64,000 nucleotides of DNA from Kitasatospora sp. NBC_01246 (lineage in GTDB: Bacteria; Actinomycetota; Actinomycetes; Streptomycetales; Streptomycetaceae): assembly GCF_036226505.1 (NCBI RefSeq), contig NZ_CP108484.1:558001-622000 (forward strand). Direction: 5' to 3'. The notes under the pieces are model-generated. The model did no database searches and was not told the origin of the DNA. It worked only from the letters and a program-made list of their open reading frames with translations. Positions 19,614 through 25,037 of this stretch are shown here, one piece after another. Positions within the stretch are counted from its first letter, which is position 1. Each line of letters opens with the position of its first letter. The position numbers were made by a program, and so were the translations under genes.

Positions 19614-19744
19614 CCCCGTGACCCGCGACCCCGTGACCTCATGACCCCCTGGCCGCGTGATCGAGGGGCCCGGTTCCGTCGGCGGTGAGACGGGCCGTCG
19701 CAGCGGCCCGAGGCCCCCGGTTGCCCTGCGGGCGATCGTGGGCT

Positions 19745-19770
19745 TTAATAAATGAACAGGCATTTATTAA
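19745..19770. promoter_or_regulatory. TetR operator, perfect inverted repeat
   Basis: TTAATAAATG (19745-19754) and CATTTATTAA (19761-19770) form a perfect 10-bp inverted repeat with a 6-bp spacer, strikingly AT-rich for this genome. It ends 13 nt before the TetR start codon and contains -10-like sequence, so binding would block the promoter. Confidence 0.8.
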
Positions 19771-19783
19771 TGAGGGGGTAGCG

Positions 19784-20401
19784 ATGGCCGGACGTCCCCG
19801 AGGCGTGGACGACGTGGTGATCCTGCGCGCGACGGCCGAGGTGATCGGCCGGGTGGGCCCCGCCGGGCTGACGCTGGCCGCCGTGGCCCGCGAGGTCGGG
19901 CTGGTGCCCGGCACCCTCGTGCAGCGGTTCGGCTCCAAGCACGGCCTGCTGGTGGCGCTCGCCGAGCAGTCCGTCAAGGACGCGGACGCGTTGCACGGCC
20001 GGGTGCGGGAGGCGCACCCATCGGTCCTCGGGGCGCTGGCCGCGCTGGTCGTCGAGTCGATGGCTCCGATGGCCACGCCGGAGAGCTTCGCCAACCACCT
20101 GGCTTTCCTGTGCACGGATCTCACGGACCCGCAGCTCTACGAGCCCGCCCTGGCCGCCCACCGGGCCCAGGAACGGGTGATCCGGGCACTGCTGGCGGAG
20201 GCCGTCGCCGCCGGCGAACTCCGGGCCGGGACGGACGTCGCGGCGGTGGCCGGGTCCGTCCAGGCGGTCACCGCCGGCGTGGGCCTCGTCTGGGCGCTCG
20301 ACCGCCGGGGCACCCTCGCGCAGCGGCTGCGCCGGGAGCTCGACGCCCTCCTGGCCCCGCACCACCCACCCCGGCACCGCCACGACCTGGAGGAAGCATG
20401 A
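19784..20401 (+). CDS. TetR/AcrR-family regulator
   Basis: The 205-residue protein begins MAGRPRG and has an N-terminal helix-turn-helix (GLTLAAVAREVGLVPGTLVQ RFGSKHGLL, ~27-55) and a mixed helical ligand domain. The ATG at 19784 has GAGGGGG upstream. Its stop overlaps the start of the downstream SDR gene (ATGA), so the two form an operon controlled by the inverted repeat at 19745-19770, almost certainly its own site. The likely inducer is a substrate of the SDR enzyme. Confidence 0.92.
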   Translation: MAGRPRGVDDVVILRATAEVIGRVGPAGLTLAAVAREVGLVPGTLVQRFGSKHGLLVALAEQSVKDADALHGRVREAHPSVLGALAALVVESMAPMATPESFANHLAFLCTDLTDPQLYEPALAAHRAQERVIRALLAEAVAAGELRAGTDVAAVAGSVQAVTAGVGLVWALDRRGTLAQRLRRELDALLAPHHPPRHRHDLEEA

Positions 20402-21309
20402 CGAACGACACCCGGCCGCTGGCGGGGAAGGTGGCGCTGGTCGCCGGCGGGACCAGGGGCGGCGGACGGGGCATCGCCGTCGAGCTCGGGGCGGCCGGCG
20501 CGACGGTGTACGTCACCGGCCGCAGCAGCACGGCCGGGCGCTCCGACCTGGACCGTCCGGAGACCGTCGAGGAGACCGCCGAGCGGATCACCGCCGCCGG
20601 CGGCGTCGGAGTCCCCGTCCGCACCGACCACAGCCGCCCAGAGGAGGTCCGCGCCCTGGTCGACCGGATCGCGGCCGAACAGGACGGCCGGCTCGACGTC
20701 CTGGTCAACTCCGTATGGGGCGGGGACCAGCTGACGGACTGGACGCACCCGCTGTGGGAGCAGGACCTCGACACCGGCCTCCGGCTGCTGCGGCGGGCGG
20801 TGGAGACCCATGTGATCACCAGCCGCTTCGCACTGCCGCTGATGGTCGCGCGCCGGAGCGGTCTGGTCGTGGAGGTCACCGACGGCAACACCGCCCGCTA
20901 CCGCGGCTCGTTCTTCTACGACCTCGCGAAGTCCGCGGTGATCCGCCTCGCCGTCGCGCAGGCCGCCGAGCTGAAGGCGCACGACGTCGCGGCCGTCGCG
21001 ATCACGCCGGGCTTCCTGCGCTCGGAGGCCGTGCTGGAGCACTTCGGGGTCACCGAGGCCAACTGGCGCGACGGCGTCGCCCAGGACCCGAACTTCGCCC
21101 ACTCGGAAACCCCCGCCTACCTGGGACGGGCAGTCGCCGCGCTGGCCGCCGACCCCGCCGTCATGGCCAAGACCGGCCGGGCGCTCGCCACCTGGGGCCT
21201 CTACCGGGAGTACGGGTTCACCGACGCCGACGGCACGCGACCGGACTTCGCCGCCCACTGGGCCGACTCCCTGGAGGCGGAGTTCGGGCCGCTGGGAGAT
21301 CCGCTCTGA
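20398..21309 (+). CDS. Short-chain dehydrogenase/reductase
   Basis: A 303-residue classical SDR. The cofactor loop is GGTRGGGRGIA (~17-27), the NNAG-equivalent is VNSVWGG, and the active-site YxxxK is YDLAK near residue 174. The sequence VWGGDQ and the C-terminal extension (YREYGFTDADGTRPDF) mark a subgroup commonly seen in actinomycetes beside TetR regulators. It is translationally coupled to the TetR gene by a 4-bp overlap. The substrate is unknown. Confidence 0.92.
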   Translation: MTNDTRPLAGKVALVAGGTRGGGRGIAVELGAAGATVYVTGRSSTAGRSDLDRPETVEETAERITAAGGVGVPVRTDHSRPEEVRALVDRIAAEQDGRLDVLVNSVWGGDQLTDWTHPLWEQDLDTGLRLLRRAVETHVITSRFALPLMVARRSGLVVEVTDGNTARYRGSFFYDLAKSAVIRLAVAQAAELKAHDVAAVAITPGFLRSEAVLEHFGVTEANWRDGVAQDPNFAHSETPAYLGRAVAALAADPAVMAKTGRALATWGLYREYGFTDADGTRPDFAAHWADSLEAEFGPLGDPL

Positions 21310-21439: not shown

Positions 21440-21469
21440 TTGAACATGTTCAAACCCGTGCGCCATGAT
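21440..21469 (+). promoter_or_regulatory. Palindromic operator and candidate promoter of the five-gene operon
   Basis: TTGAACATGTTCAA (21440-21453) is a perfect 14-bp palindrome. Its left end doubles as a -35 (TTGAAC) placed 18 bp from CATGAT (21464-21469). The first gene begins 114 nt further on. This differs from the site of the TetR protein encoded at 19784, so another regulator is expected. Confidence 0.65.
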
Positions 21470-21582
21470 GATCCCGAGCGGGAGCCCCCGACCCCGACCG
21501 AGGGGTTCGGGCCACCCCGCCGTGCCCCGCCCTGCCCCGGCGCACCCGCGCTCGCCGGCAGCGGAAGAAAGGACCGTCCACC

Positions 21583-21987
21583 GTGCCGACTCCTTGGCAG
21601 ACCCGGCTGAGCGCCTCCGCGGTCGCCCTGATGTGGGGCTACGAGGGCCTCTGGTGCAAGATCTTCCCCGGCCGCGCCGACCAGCGCGCCATCGTGGCGG
21701 GCCTGCCGCTCCTGCCCGGGAGCGCCGTGACGCCGCTGCTGATCATCATCGGCCTGGCCGAGCTGGCCCTCGGCGCCTGGGTGCTCAGCGGACGCCGGGC
21801 CAGGCCGGCCGCGATCGTCCAGACCCTGCTGGTCGTCGGGTTCAACACCGGCGGCCTGCTGTTCGGCGCCGACCGCATCCCCGAACCGGGCCGCCTCGTC
21901 GTCCAGGACATCGCCTTCCTGGCCCTCGTCTGGACCCTCCCCGCCGCCCGGCGCGACCGCATCCGCCCGATCGCGGTCGCCGCATGA
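21583..21987 (+). CDS. DoxX-like small membrane protein, first gene of operon
   Basis: The 134-residue protein has four predicted membrane helices (AVALMWGYEGLWCK; TPLLIIIGLAELALGAWVLS; IVQTLLVVGFNTGGLLFG; DIAFLALVWTL) and is of the DoxX-like four-helix type. No catalytic residue is evident. A start at 21583 (GTG) is supported by GGAAGAAAGGA about 10 nt upstream. It overlaps the BtaA-like gene by four bases (ATGA), so the two are translationally coupled. The context suggests a role in the membrane step of whatever this operon does. Confidence 0.8.
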   Translation: MPTPWQTRLSASAVALMWGYEGLWCKIFPGRADQRAIVAGLPLLPGSAVTPLLIIIGLAELALGAWVLSGRRARPAAIVQTLLVVGFNTGGLLFGADRIPEPGRLVVQDIAFLALVWTLPAARRDRIRPIAVAA

Positions 21988-22895
21988 GCACCGCCACGCC
22001 CTGGACCGAAGGCCGACTGCTCAGCCTCCAGACCCGCCGCCCGCGCGTCCTGTTCGGCCGGATGTACGAGGACCCGGCCGTCGAACTCGGCGCGTTCCCG
22101 GCACCGGGCGCCCGCGTGCTCTGCATCGCCTCGGCCGGCGACACCGCCGCCGCACTGGCCGCCGCCGGGCACGAGGTCACCGCCATCGACCTCAACCCCG
22201 CCCAGCTCGCCTACGCCCGCGGCCGGCTCACCACCGGCGCGCCCGCGACCACCGGCTCCGCGGAACACCTGCTCGCCGCGGGCCGGGCGGCGGCCGCCGC
22301 CGTCCTCCCGGCCTGGCGACCCGCCGCCCTGGAACGCTTCCTGCGCCTGGACGACCCCGCCGCCCAGGCCCGCCACTGGCGCCACCGGCTCGACGGACCC
22401 GGCCTGCGCCTGCTGCTCGCCGCCGCCCTGCGCCCCGCCGGCACGCTCGCCACCGCCGTGCGGCCCGCCTTCCGGGACGTCCTGCCCCACCGCTTCGACA
22501 CCGCCCTGCGGGCCCGGCTGGCCCGCGGGGTCGCCCGCCACCCCAACGCCGACAACCCCTACGCCTGGCGCCTGCTCCTCGGCCGCGAACTGCCCGGGCC
22601 GCCCGTCACCCCCGCCGAACCGGCCGCGGCCCCCGTCCGGCTGCTCGCCGGCGACGTCCTCGACCACCTCGAACGCTCCCCCGCCGGCCACTACGACGCC
22701 GTCACCCTCTCCAACGTCCTGGACGGCCCCGGCCCGGCCTTCACCCGGCGCCTGCGCGCCGCCGTCCAGCACGCCGTCCGCCCCGGTGGAACCGCCGTCC
22801 TGCGCAGCATCCGCGAACCGGGCCCCGCCGGCCCGGGCGCCGCCGCCGAGGACCGCTCCCTGCTCTGGGGCGTCATCCGGGTGCTCCGGCTCTGA
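21984..22895 (+). CDS. DUF3419 protein, BtaA-like 3-amino-3-carboxypropyl transferase
   Basis: The 303-residue protein shows the DUF3419/BtaA pattern: LFGRMYEDPAVELGAF (~23-38, the position of BtaA's WEDP), the SAM loop VLCIASAGD (45-53), AIDLNPAQLAYARG (67-80), a middle RHPNADNPYAW block and YDAVTLSNVLDGP. BtaA transfers the 3-amino-3-carboxypropyl group of SAM to diacylglycerol in the first step of betaine-lipid (DGTS) synthesis. This protein is about 100 residues shorter than BtaA, so its acceptor may differ. A SAM methyltransferase two genes on could play the BtaB-like part. Family assignment is good; reaction is inferred. Confidence 0.8.
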   Translation: MSTATPWTEGRLLSLQTRRPRVLFGRMYEDPAVELGAFPAPGARVLCIASAGDTAAALAAAGHEVTAIDLNPAQLAYARGRLTTGAPATTGSAEHLLAAGRAAAAAVLPAWRPAALERFLRLDDPAAQARHWRHRLDGPGLRLLLAAALRPAGTLATAVRPAFRDVLPHRFDTALRARLARGVARHPNADNPYAWRLLLGRELPGPPVTPAEPAAAPVRLLAGDVLDHLERSPAGHYDAVTLSNVLDGPGPAFTRRLRAAVQHAVRPGGTAVLRSIREPGPAGPGAAAEDRSLLWGVIRVLRL

Positions 22896-23040
22896 GGGCC
22901 CCCGGTTCCGAGGACCACTCAGCTCCGAAGACCACCCGGCTCCGAAGGCCACCCGGCTCTCAAGGCCCCGGCCCTGAAAGCCCCGGCTCAGAAAGCCCCG
23001 GCCCTCAAGGCCGCCGGTTCCGAGGACCACCCACCGCTTC
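22896..23040. repeat. Degenerate 15-18 bp tandem repeats between operon genes 2 and 3
   Basis: About eight imperfect units of the type GGCTCCGAAGGCCACCC or GGCCCTGAAAGCCCC fill this 145-nt spacer; GGTTCCGAGGACCAC occurs at both ends. The spacer is the only long gap in an otherwise overlapping operon, and the repeats can form several alternative hairpins. Confidence 0.6.
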
Positions 23041-23062
23041 GCGCCCACCACCGGAGTCGACC

Positions 23063-23842
23063 GTGCGACACCTGCTCCAACGCCACCCCTTCCCGATGCG
23101 CACCCACTTCGCGCACTCCCTCGTCCTCACCTACGCCCTCCCGCCGCACCTCCTCGTGCCCCTCGTGCCGCCCGGCCTCGCCCTCGACACCTACACCGAC
23201 CCCACCGGCACCGAACACGGCTTCGTCGCCGCCGCCGTCGTCGACACCCGCGCGCTGCGCCCGGCCGGCCTGCCCGCCCGCCTCGGCCGCGACTTCATCC
23301 TCACCGGCTACCGGATCTTCACCCGGTTCCCCACCCCGGGCGGGCGCACCATGCGCGGACTGCGGATCCTGCGCTCCGACACCGACAACCGGCTGATGGC
23401 CGCCGGCGGCAACCTCTTCTCCCGCTACCACTACCGTTCCGCCAGGATCGGCGCCCGGGTACTCGGCGACACCCTGGAGTTCAAGGTCCTCAGCACCGAC
23501 GGCCGCGCCGACCTGCATGTGCGCGCCGACCTCGCGAGCAGCCCCGCACTCCTACCGCCCGGCAGTCCGTTCGCCGACGCCCGGGCCGCGCGCCGGTTCG
23601 CCGGACCGCTGCCCTACACCTTCGAGTACGAGCCGGAAACCCGCTCCATGATCGTCGTCAAGGCCACCCGCACCCACTGGGACCCCGTCCCGGTGGCGGT
23701 CGAGGTCCCCCGGCTGACCTTCTTCGACCACGGCCCCTTCACCGGCAGCCGCCCCGTCCTCGCCAACGCCTTCCACGTCGCCGACGTCGACTACGGCTGG
23801 GAGGCCGGCCACCGCCGTGCCCTCGACGGAGCCCGCCGATGA
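23063..23842 (+). CDS. DUF2071 / acetoacetate-decarboxylase-fold protein
   Basis: The 259-residue protein belongs to the DUF2071 (YqjF-like) group: MRTHFAHSLVLTYALPPHLL then VPLVPPGLALDTY, followed by FILTGYRIFTRF, MRGLRILRSDTDN and YTFEYEPETRSM. These adopt an acetoacetate-decarboxylase-like beta-barrel, but no DUF2071 enzyme activity is established to my knowledge. The GTG start at 23063 has GGAG 7 nt upstream. It overlaps the methyltransferase gene by four bases. Co-occurrence with a BtaA-like enzyme is the main hint to its role. Confidence 0.85.
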   Translation: MRHLLQRHPFPMRTHFAHSLVLTYALPPHLLVPLVPPGLALDTYTDPTGTEHGFVAAAVVDTRALRPAGLPARLGRDFILTGYRIFTRFPTPGGRTMRGLRILRSDTDNRLMAAGGNLFSRYHYRSARIGARVLGDTLEFKVLSTDGRADLHVRADLASSPALLPPGSPFADARAARRFAGPLPYTFEYEPETRSMIVVKATRTHWDPVPVAVEVPRLTFFDHGPFTGSRPVLANAFHVADVDYGWEAGHRRALDGARR

Positions 23843-24618
23843 ACGCCCGGCCCGCCCGGCCCGCCGGGCCCGCGCGGCGCCCCTCGGGTGTCCGCGAGGT
23901 GATCCGCTACAACTGGCCGATGTACGCCGCCGGCGCCGTCACCGCCGCCACCGGCTGGGCGCTGGCCCGTCACCTCCCCGCCCGGCCCGCCGCCCTCGCC
24001 CGCGCCGCCTCGGCCGGCGCCGCCGCGCTCCTCACCACCAGCACCCTGGCCACCTGGCACGTCTACGACCGCTCCGAACTCCACTCCTACGACTGGCTGT
24101 CCGACCTGCTCCCCGACGGCCCGGGCGACCACCTGGTCGTCTGCACCGGACTCGACGAGGCCAGCCGCCCGGTCGCCGCCCGGTACCCCACCGCCCGCCA
24201 GCTCGTCGCCGACCTCTACGACCCGGCCCTGACCACCGAGGGCTCGATCCGGCGCGCCCGTCGCCACGCCCCGCCCGCCCCCGGCACCGTCTCCGCCCGC
24301 CCCGACGCCCTGCCCGCCGCCACCGGCTCCCTCGACACCGTACTCACCGTCCTCGCCGCCCACGAACTGCGTCGGCCCGCCGACCGCACGGCACTGTTCA
24401 CCGAGGCCGTCCGCACCCTGCGGCCCGGCGGCACCCTGCTGCTGGTGGAGCACCTGCGCGACCTCGCCAACACCGCCGCCTACGGCCCGGGCGCCTGGCA
24501 CTTCCAGCCGCGCGCCACCTGGCTGCGGCACGCCGCCGAGGCCGGACTGCACCCGGCCGCCGAACGCCGGATCGCCACACTGATCACCGCCTTCGCCTTC
24601 CGGAGTCCCGCCGCATGA
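23839..24618 (+). CDS. Membrane-anchored SAM-dependent methyltransferase-like protein
   Basis: The 259-residue protein has an N-terminal hydrophobic pair (YAAGAVTAATGWALARHL; AASAGAAALLTTSTLATW) followed by a class I methyltransferase domain. The usual motif I glycine loop is replaced by HLVVCTGLDEASRPVAARYP, while later motifs are normal (GSLDTVLTVLAAHELR; VRTLRPGGTLLLVEHLRDLA). The altered loop recalls a subset of methyltransferases in which SAM binding is unproven. It overlaps both neighbours by four bases. It would be the natural N-methylating partner for the BtaA-like enzyme, but this is inference. Confidence 0.8.
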   Translation: MNARPARPAGPARRPSGVREVIRYNWPMYAAGAVTAATGWALARHLPARPAALARAASAGAAALLTTSTLATWHVYDRSELHSYDWLSDLLPDGPGDHLVVCTGLDEASRPVAARYPTARQLVADLYDPALTTEGSIRRARRHAPPAPGTVSARPDALPAATGSLDTVLTVLAAHELRRPADRTALFTEAVRTLRPGGTLLLVEHLRDLANTAAYGPGAWHFQPRATWLRHAAEAGLHPAAERRIATLITAFAFRSPAA

Positions 24619-25037
24619 CCGAACTGTTCACCCTGGAAGCCCAGTTGAGGTTGGTCGGCGCGGCCCTGGTCGGCATGGGCCTGTTCCACGCCGTCCTGCC
24701 GCGCATCGTGCAGTGGCCGGCCGACCTGTCCGGCGCCAGCCTGCTGACCCGCCAGGTCTCCTACGTCCACCTCTTCTTCATCGCGCTGACCTGCGCGCTG
24801 CTCGGCCTGATGCCGCTCTGCCTGGCCCCCGACCTCCTCGCCGGCACCCGCCTGGGCACCGCCCTGCTGGCCGGGCAGACGCTCTTCTGGGGCCTGCGCT
24901 GGCTGTTCGAGTTCGCCGTCTTCTCCCCCAGGCTCTGGCGCGGCGACCCCCTGCGGACCGCCGCGCACATCGGCCTCTCGGTCCTCTGGACCTGGGTCGC
25001 CGCGGTCTTCGCGCTCGCCCTCTGGAGGGTCCTCTAG
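24615..25037 (+). CDS. Four-helix membrane protein, last gene of the BtaA-like operon
   Basis: The 140-residue protein has four predicted membrane helices (LRLVGAALVGMGLFHAVLP; LFFIALTCALLGLMPL; ALLAGQTLFWGLRWLFEFAV; IGLSVLWTWVAAVFALAL). A histidine in GLFHAVLP and another in SYVHLFF lie within or near helices, so heme or quinone binding is conceivable but unproven. It starts within the methyltransferase stop codon (ATGA). I recognise no family. Confidence 0.75.
   Translation: MTELFTLEAQLRLVGAALVGMGLFHAVLPRIVQWPADLSGASLLTRQVSYVHLFFIALTCALLGLMPLCLAPDLLAGTRLGTALLAGQTLFWGLRWLFEFAVFSPRLWRGDPLRTAAHIGLSVLWTWVAAVFALALWRVL

Follow-up and report, generated by a model that had tools for sequence, protein, structure and literature searches.

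The stretch of DNA analyzed here, a window of 64,000 nucleotides from Kitasatospora sp. NBC_01246 (contig NZ_CP108484.1, positions 558,001 to 622,000), contains five co-directional genes at 21583–25037 that form one operon behind a palindrome at 21440 (Table 1). They code for a DoxX-like membrane protein, a short relative of BtaA from the DUF3419 family, a DUF2071 protein, a class I methyltransferase (MT), and a small membrane protein with three to four helices (4TM: four transmembrane helices). The initial annotation described this operon as built around the BtaA-like protein. The five-gene operon is indeed real, with four of the five proteins scoring above their Pfam cut-offs, but the BtaA-like protein is not its center. 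Since several loci keep the DUF2071, MT, and 4TM genes without a DUF3419 gene, we regard these three genes as the core of the module, and DoxX together with the BtaA-like enzyme as a detachable front half. Our preferred reading, which we put forward tentatively, is an accessory two-part module: the core would make a membrane-associated product that in some strains is decorated with an aminocarboxypropyl (homoserine) group.

Gene content and distribution

A scan of 297 Streptomycetaceae genomes with the DUF3419 protein found its gene in 26, including the own genome of the window, spread over 5 of 17 genera. This recurrence argues against a chance association. The gene neighborhood proved conserved, as the initial annotation had proposed to check: 21 of the 26 genomes contain the complete set in one and the same order, although in one of these (G084) the MT is split over two frames. 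Imperfect versions comprise all five genes with a shortened DUF3419 (G016), all five with a DUF3419 that can be aligned only from residue 148 (G045), decayed pieces of all five (G163), four genes with MT-4TM on another contig (G114), and only DoxX with the start of DUF3419 (G087). A complete set is also found on one Streptomyces linear plasmid, and a contig of a Kutzneria metagenome-assembled genome (L007) stops inside the third gene. Among named organisms, Kitasatospora and Streptomyces come closest, and K. paracochleata is one example with the five-gene form. In Actinomycetota at large the DUF3419 family is rare, with 3 of 396 genomes positive, G679 among them. A scan of a phylum sample with the window protein likewise matched 3 of 396 genomes, and the only true orthologue is that of the own genome; the match in G443 is a long, mycobacterial-type DUF3419 protein and that in G370 an ordinary methyltransferase. 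Loci that we considered as relatives of the DUF3419 protein (L057/L059, L064, L065) contain ordinary methyltransferases, judged by sequence.

The five genes appear to evolve together. Pairwise divergence of the five proteins correlates with r values of 0.69–0.94 across 20 of the 24 loci (L007, L036, L045, and L055 were omitted as incomplete, frame-split, or shortened), and the ratio of nonsynonymous to synonymous substitution rates (dN/dS), calculated against up to seven loci, is 0.20–0.52 for the five genes and 0.26–0.39 for the DUF3419 gene. Alignment A1 of the DUF3419 protein combines the window protein with 18 of the 23 other loci (L043, L045, L046, L047, and L055 omitted); the other alignments draw on 17 of 23 (A2), 17 of 22 (A3), 14 of 21 (A4), and 15 of 23 (A5) other loci. 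Duplicate records (L002, L003, L004, and L006 for L037, L036, L047, and L046; L005 and L008 for G090 and G189) were counted once. The compact layout described by the initial annotation was confirmed, with three ATGA overlaps of four bases and a single spacer of 167 bp. This spacer includes most of a degenerate tandem repeat with a unit of 15–17 bp (22886–23017) and is not conserved, as in 16 of 24 loci the DUF3419 and DUF2071 genes share four bases instead. An overlap of exactly four bases also joins MT to 4TM in 16 of the 22 loci where both genes could be placed. Because gene starts across loci were set by a scoring rule, these overlaps are approximate, and L045 gave an artefact.

The module appears to end with these five genes, because outside the group L051–L055 no flanking gene family is common to at least four loci, the level of sharing that was surveyed. 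Upstream of the operon (19685–21309), a weakly ScbR-like TetR regulator gene overlaps that of a short-chain dehydrogenase/reductase (SDR), and a GntR gene lies downstream. We discarded these neighbors as parts of the module, as they have only weak matches elsewhere (31% for GntR in L044, 30% for the SDR in L201) and the flanks have no family in common. In L051–L055 (genera g14 and g16), palindromes TTTCACGTGAAA stand directly before the operon, at most 230 bases upstream of DoxX. We take this motif to be the Streptomyces parS core, which suggests that the operon lies near the replication origin in these genomes.

Plasmids provide one source of core-only loci. Queries with DUF2071, with MT, and with 4TM all led to one set of six Streptomyces records, of which the DUF3419 query retrieved a single one (E 1e-4). 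The other five are from S. lavendulae (four, pSA3239 being a core-only plasmid of this species) and S. yangpuensis, and some of them may be one plasmid sequenced twice. In the three plasmids that were inspected (L169, L170, L171), an ArsR-family gene is followed by DUF2071, MT, and 4TM, with no DoxX or DUF3419 gene beside the core; L171 is unannotated, and its ArsR gene was located by tblastn (88%). Chromosomes provide the other source. The 4TM protein serves as a marker and hardly occurs outside the module. It was detected in 1 of 198 genomes of the phylum and in 26 of 185 genomes of the family, and 5 of these 26 have no DUF3419 orthologue. G093 and G134 contain operator-DUF2071-MT-4TM, and G042 contains the operator, a DUF3419 remnant of 23 residues, and DUF2071-MT-4TM. 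G053 retains 4TM alone, and G108 a decayed DUF2071 gene adjoining 4TM. The second contig of G114 adds an operator-MT-4TM locus. A DUF3419 profile search of G134, G042, and G093 recovered the remnant in G042 (24.9 bits) and nothing in G093; the other matches, at 20–26 bits, look like generic methyltransferase matches. The core genes in the DUF3419-less loci, the MT-4TM locus of G114 included, contain no stops and have dN/dS values of 0.14–0.66. Given that the full form occurs in other genera, the simpler history for G042, where a remnant is still visible, is that the front half was lost. For the other loci, a gain of the front half is conceivable.

Table 1. Features of the operon in window coordinates
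Feature	Position	Strand	Remarks
Palindrome TTGAACATGTTCAA, putative operator	21440..21453	.	left half could double as -35 (TTGAAC), 18 bp before -10-like CATGAT
DoxX_3-like small membrane protein, first gene	21583..21987	+	134 aa; PF13781 49 bits, cut-off 25, E 9.5e-13
Short DUF3419 (BtaA-superfamily) protein, accessory gene	21984..22895	+	303 aa; PF11899 49.5 bits, cut-off 28.2
Spacer between DUF3419 and DUF2071 genes	22896..23062	+	167 bp
DUF2071 protein, core gene	23063..23842	+	259 aa; PF09844 42 bits, cut-off 27
Class I methyltransferase (MT), core gene	23839..24618	+	259 aa; Methyltransf_11 28.8 bits, cut-off 21.2
4TM membrane protein (3–4 helices), core and marker gene	24615..25037	+	140 aa; no Pfam family at E 1

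The short DUF3419 protein and its partners

BtaA is a diacylglycerol 3-amino-3-carboxypropyl transferase of the DUF3419 family that is paired with BtaB. As a reference we used the canonical BtaA from G679, which is followed by a BtaB-like methyltransferase that, given its gene position, is presumably BtaB. The prediction that the window protein is about 100 residues shorter than BtaA agrees with this reference (303 versus 404 residues). It retains the motifs YEDP (WEDP in BtaA), SAGD (SGGC), DLNPAQ (DINPRQ), and NPYAW (GNYFW), as well as an L-D pair, RS, and DR, all in the same order and most at matching alignment columns. Missing are about 57 residues from the middle and 34 from the C-terminus of canonical BtaA. 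Thus, the distance from the Asp of DxNPxQ to the Asn of N-Y-W is 122 residues in the window protein, 179 in G679 BtaA, and 166 in the mycobacterial-type protein L058. The part between the L-D pair and the C-terminus comprises 58 residues, compared with 92 in G679 BtaA. The canonical BtaA matches the DUF3419 profile over positions 8–383, whereas the window protein matches in two stretches, the best of which covers 12–67 of 385; the genomic match to PF11899 scores 33.1 bits. Because the profile is not covered over its full length, we assign the protein to DUF3419 but do not call it BtaA. Its motifs and its class I fold mark it as a genuine, though shortened, BtaA-superfamily protein, and it is probably a 3-amino-3-carboxypropyl transferase.

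The closest family members found outside the operon are the mycobacterial-type proteins (about 33% identity; L058 in G443, and L162), to the first of which hhalign aligned the window protein over 254 columns with E 1e-17. The BtaA motifs recur in this type as well. L058 is 391 residues long, and neither it nor L162 has DoxX, DUF2071, or 4TM as neighbors. On a linear plasmid of M. riyadhense (L162:4022-6739), the long DUF3419 gene is followed by genes for an iron-containing redox enzyme (Haem_oxygenas_2), a GNAT protein, and a resistance-nodulation-division (RND) transporter. This plasmid neighborhood is another uncharacterized context of DUF3419. The counterpart in L058 lies at L058:8569-11465.

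The predicted structure of the window DUF3419 protein is a class I S-adenosylmethionine (SAM) fold with a helical insert (Z 12.9 to 3sm3 over 149 residues, root-mean-square deviation (rmsd) 2.9). A modeled fold of this class does not by itself reveal the function. Unlike BtaA in the BtaA-BtaB pair, the enzyme is embedded with DoxX, DUF2071, and 4TM, and it is missing from some copies of the module. A DoxX gene precedes every DUF3419 gene of the operon family in the loci examined. DoxX and 4TM are unlikely duplicates of one fold, as the hhalign probability for this pairing is 0.1%.

The model of the DUF2071 protein is of higher quality, with a mean predicted local distance difference test score (pLDDT) of 91.2, and adopts the fold of acetoacetate decarboxylase (ADC). 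Twelve PDB entries match with Z values of 16.0–18.2, the next at 8.5, and the best match is 3c8w (Z 18.2, 208 residues, rmsd 3.5). Members of the ADC-like superfamily (ADC, MppR, Swit_4259) have this fold in common with the DUF2071 protein at an identity of only 9–16%. According to PMC4520260, kinship of DUF2071 with this superfamily has already been proposed, and the Schiff-base lysine is not conserved in DUF2071. In our alignment A2, K200 is the sole invariant lysine.

The atypical SAM loop of the MT, CTGLDEAS, which the initial annotation had pointed out, is a genuine feature of the family: G-L-D-E is present without exception in the 18 proteins aligned. The C-terminal region is also conserved. 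Less could be retained of the description of this protein as membrane-anchored, since the hydrophobicity of its N-terminus is weak. The most hydrophobic stretch of 19 residues scores 1.11 in the window protein, with a median of 1.33 over 23 orthologues. The A3 profile of the MT matched 21 of 198 phylum genomes at E 1e-8; we rejected the idea of a wider actinobacterial family, because among the matches listed, none except the one in the own genome extends beyond the generic columns 116–214. The 4TM protein carries invariant His and Arg residues.

A shared putative operator

The palindrome TTGAACATGTTCAA is the only match with up to two mismatches in the window, and at least one such match occurred in 8 of 100 shuffles. 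The full palindrome stands upstream of DoxX with TTGAAC-17/18 bp-CATGAT in 16 of 24 loci; it is absent from eight (L007, L049–L055), where no substitute is known. The operator may cover the -35 element, because CATGAT stands 17/18 bp from the TTGAAC of the palindrome. Function of this region as promoter and operator is suggested by its sequence. Within the 8.93 Mb of the own genome, the palindrome occurs at 5 sites in four places, with about 0.01 expected from base composition and none for a reversed control. One site precedes the operon, two precede a YndJ gene, one adjoins an HTH_20 regulator, and one is found between genes that we take to be 5-oxoprolinase-like and Wadjet-like. The proposal of a dedicated operator lacking an adjacent regulator therefore stands in its second half only: the flanks hold no regulator of the module, but the operator is shared. 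Of 28 related genomes, 21 of which have the DUF3419 gene and 7 of which lack it, 26 contain the palindrome; the reversed control had no match in 27 genomes and one in G220.

Operator contexts were inspected, among the sites listed, in 40 stretches from 11 of these 28 genomes and in three stretches of the own genome. The same operator precedes the core in L198, L200, and L201, and MT-4TM in L202. In the plasmid form, the ArsR gene heads the operon in place of the palindrome. The operator before the YndJ-family membrane protein is present as two copies 45 bp apart in the own genome (L093:4261-5204, genome position 2324260), as pairs 46 bp apart in L141 and L153, and as a single copy in L139 and L160. 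In three genomes (L140, L142, L154), the palindrome sits between divergent TetR-like and GNAT-like genes, of which the pair in L142 was analyzed with Pfam. The arrangement in the own genome (G000) is nearly the same: a site with one mismatch, TTGAACGCGTTCGA, lies about 100 bp before the frame of the TetR orthologue. Because of these positions, we did not choose the HTH_20 regulator (L092) as cognate repressor, possible as it is. The operon thus seems to have joined a regulon already present in its hosts. Transcription in the main clade would start from a promoter with its -35 element inside TTGAACnnGTTCAA, to which a resident repressor would bind, most likely a TetR_C_23 regulator encoded elsewhere in the genome (G000:C1:3993415-3994263).

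Possible products of the module

In the reading that we favor, the core would make or modify a small molecule or lipid associated with the membrane. This compound would be bound or converted by the DUF2071 barrel, methylated by the MT, and held or moved by the 4TM protein. In some strains, DoxX and the BtaA-like enzyme would act as a pair to add an aminocarboxypropyl group. A lipid product is possible. The lipid-modification pathway proposed by the initial annotation thus keeps its conserved operon, its BtaA-superfamily protein, its SAM-dependent partner, and its membrane proteins, but its betaine route is unlikely. In the literature searched, with most subscription papers outside it, DUF3419 appears in four papers and DUF2071 in one, no paper joined DUF3419 to DUF2071, and none was found to describe the operon, and to this extent the pathway is undescribed.

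Several observations weigh against this proposal. The case for transferase activity is made by sequence motifs. The alignment with canonical BtaA by hhalign (E 2e-4, probability 47%) extends over the first 63 columns only. The DUF3419 model is of middling quality (pLDDT 74.6, below 50 for residues 1–27), and its best Z values go to ordinary methyltransferases. The membrane anchor of the MT is weak, as its N-terminal hydropathy reaches at most 1.78 (L037). In some DUF3419-less pairs the MT is less constrained, with the two highest dN/dS values, 0.56 and 0.66. Finally, since the search was limited to plasmids, a DUF3419 gene could lie on the chromosomes of the plasmid hosts.

The available text of PMC10491745 lists Nat and BtaA among the aminocarboxypropyl transferases of small molecules and describes no operon of this kind. 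The DUF3419 protein could resemble Nat, the nocardicin aminocarboxypropyl transferase, and load this group onto a non-lipid acceptor in the production of a diffusible specialized metabolite. We regard such natural-product tailoring as possible but doubtful. It would suit the patchy distribution, the plasmid copies, and the short middle region of the DUF3419 protein. Nat (8zhv) is a class I protein of similar size that Foldseek ranked 18th, and the best-scoring PDB sequences for the MT profile (E ~1e-5) include CysG of Kitasatospora cystarginea (9fcy, 9fd3). On the other hand, two of the five proteins are membrane proteins, and none is a scaffold-building enzyme, carrier protein, or exporter. 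The Foldseek matches also include many methyltransferases, the TM scores for Nat are 0.30–0.32 with 13% identity, and a search with the A1 profile at E 0.1 retrieved 10 PDB sequences without Nat among them.

A role in membrane stress or detoxification, by which the core would modify or sequester a lipophilic toxic compound and DUF3419 would be an ordinary SAM-dependent enzyme recruited to it, is in our view unlikely. The operator common to YndJ and other membrane-protein genes and the ArsR-family gene with which the plasmid operon begins are what such a role would lead one to expect, but no protein of the five belongs to a known detoxification family, and the 19 aligned copies retain the BtaA motifs without erosion. 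These motifs are invariant even outside the SAM loop. Together with the dN/dS of the DUF3419 gene, this invariance makes it improbable that the protein is a catalytically dead SAM-binding partner of the MT, an idea suggested by the persistence of the core without DUF3419 and by the non-standard SAM loop of the MT. Least probable is a betaine-lipid-like pathway, in which DUF3419 would make diacylglyceryl-homoserine for trimethylation by the MT as in BtaA-BtaB with help from the other genes: a BtaA-superfamily protein does share the operon with a methyltransferase and membrane proteins, and a plasmid copy is labeled "BtaA family protein" in RefSeq, but loci that lack the BtaA-like gene still have the MT together with DUF2071 and 4TM, the hhalign match of the MT to the one BtaB-like protein compared (G679) is generic with a probability of 3%, the middle region of the DUF3419 protein is about 57 residues shorter than that of G679 BtaA, and to our knowledge DUF2071 and 4TM have no part in BtaAB. 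Hence, the MT seems not to need the product of a BtaA, and classical betaine lipid synthesis by this operon is unlikely.

We also rejected an anti-phage defense system, because no PADLOC model matches an operon protein over its whole length. Four of the five proteins match no PADLOC family at E 0.01. The mad2 model matches residues 37–82 of the DUF3419 protein (window 22092–22229, E 7e-7), on the SAM loop, which is probably a generic SAM-site match.

If the two-part module is correct in its broader form, the DUF2071-MT-4TM core would make a novel streptomycete membrane molecule in the absence of an aminocarboxypropyl transferase, and a minimal BtaA-type enzyme with its dedicated DoxX would add a strain-specific homoserine head group. 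The module would then be a modular head-group switch carried on plasmids and chromosomes and perhaps moved horizontally, with one clade under the control of a resident TetR repressor. This extended picture is speculative, and we consider it doubtful as a whole. The family DUF3419 is known as BtaA; here, a short relative belongs to a conserved set of genes, the rest of which persist without it. Some related strains have only the core and others the core plus the BtaA-like enzyme, which amounts to a natural experiment. A comparison of their lipids could at once assign functions to DUF2071, an unnamed membrane protein family, and a branch of DUF3419 outside betaine lipid synthesis.

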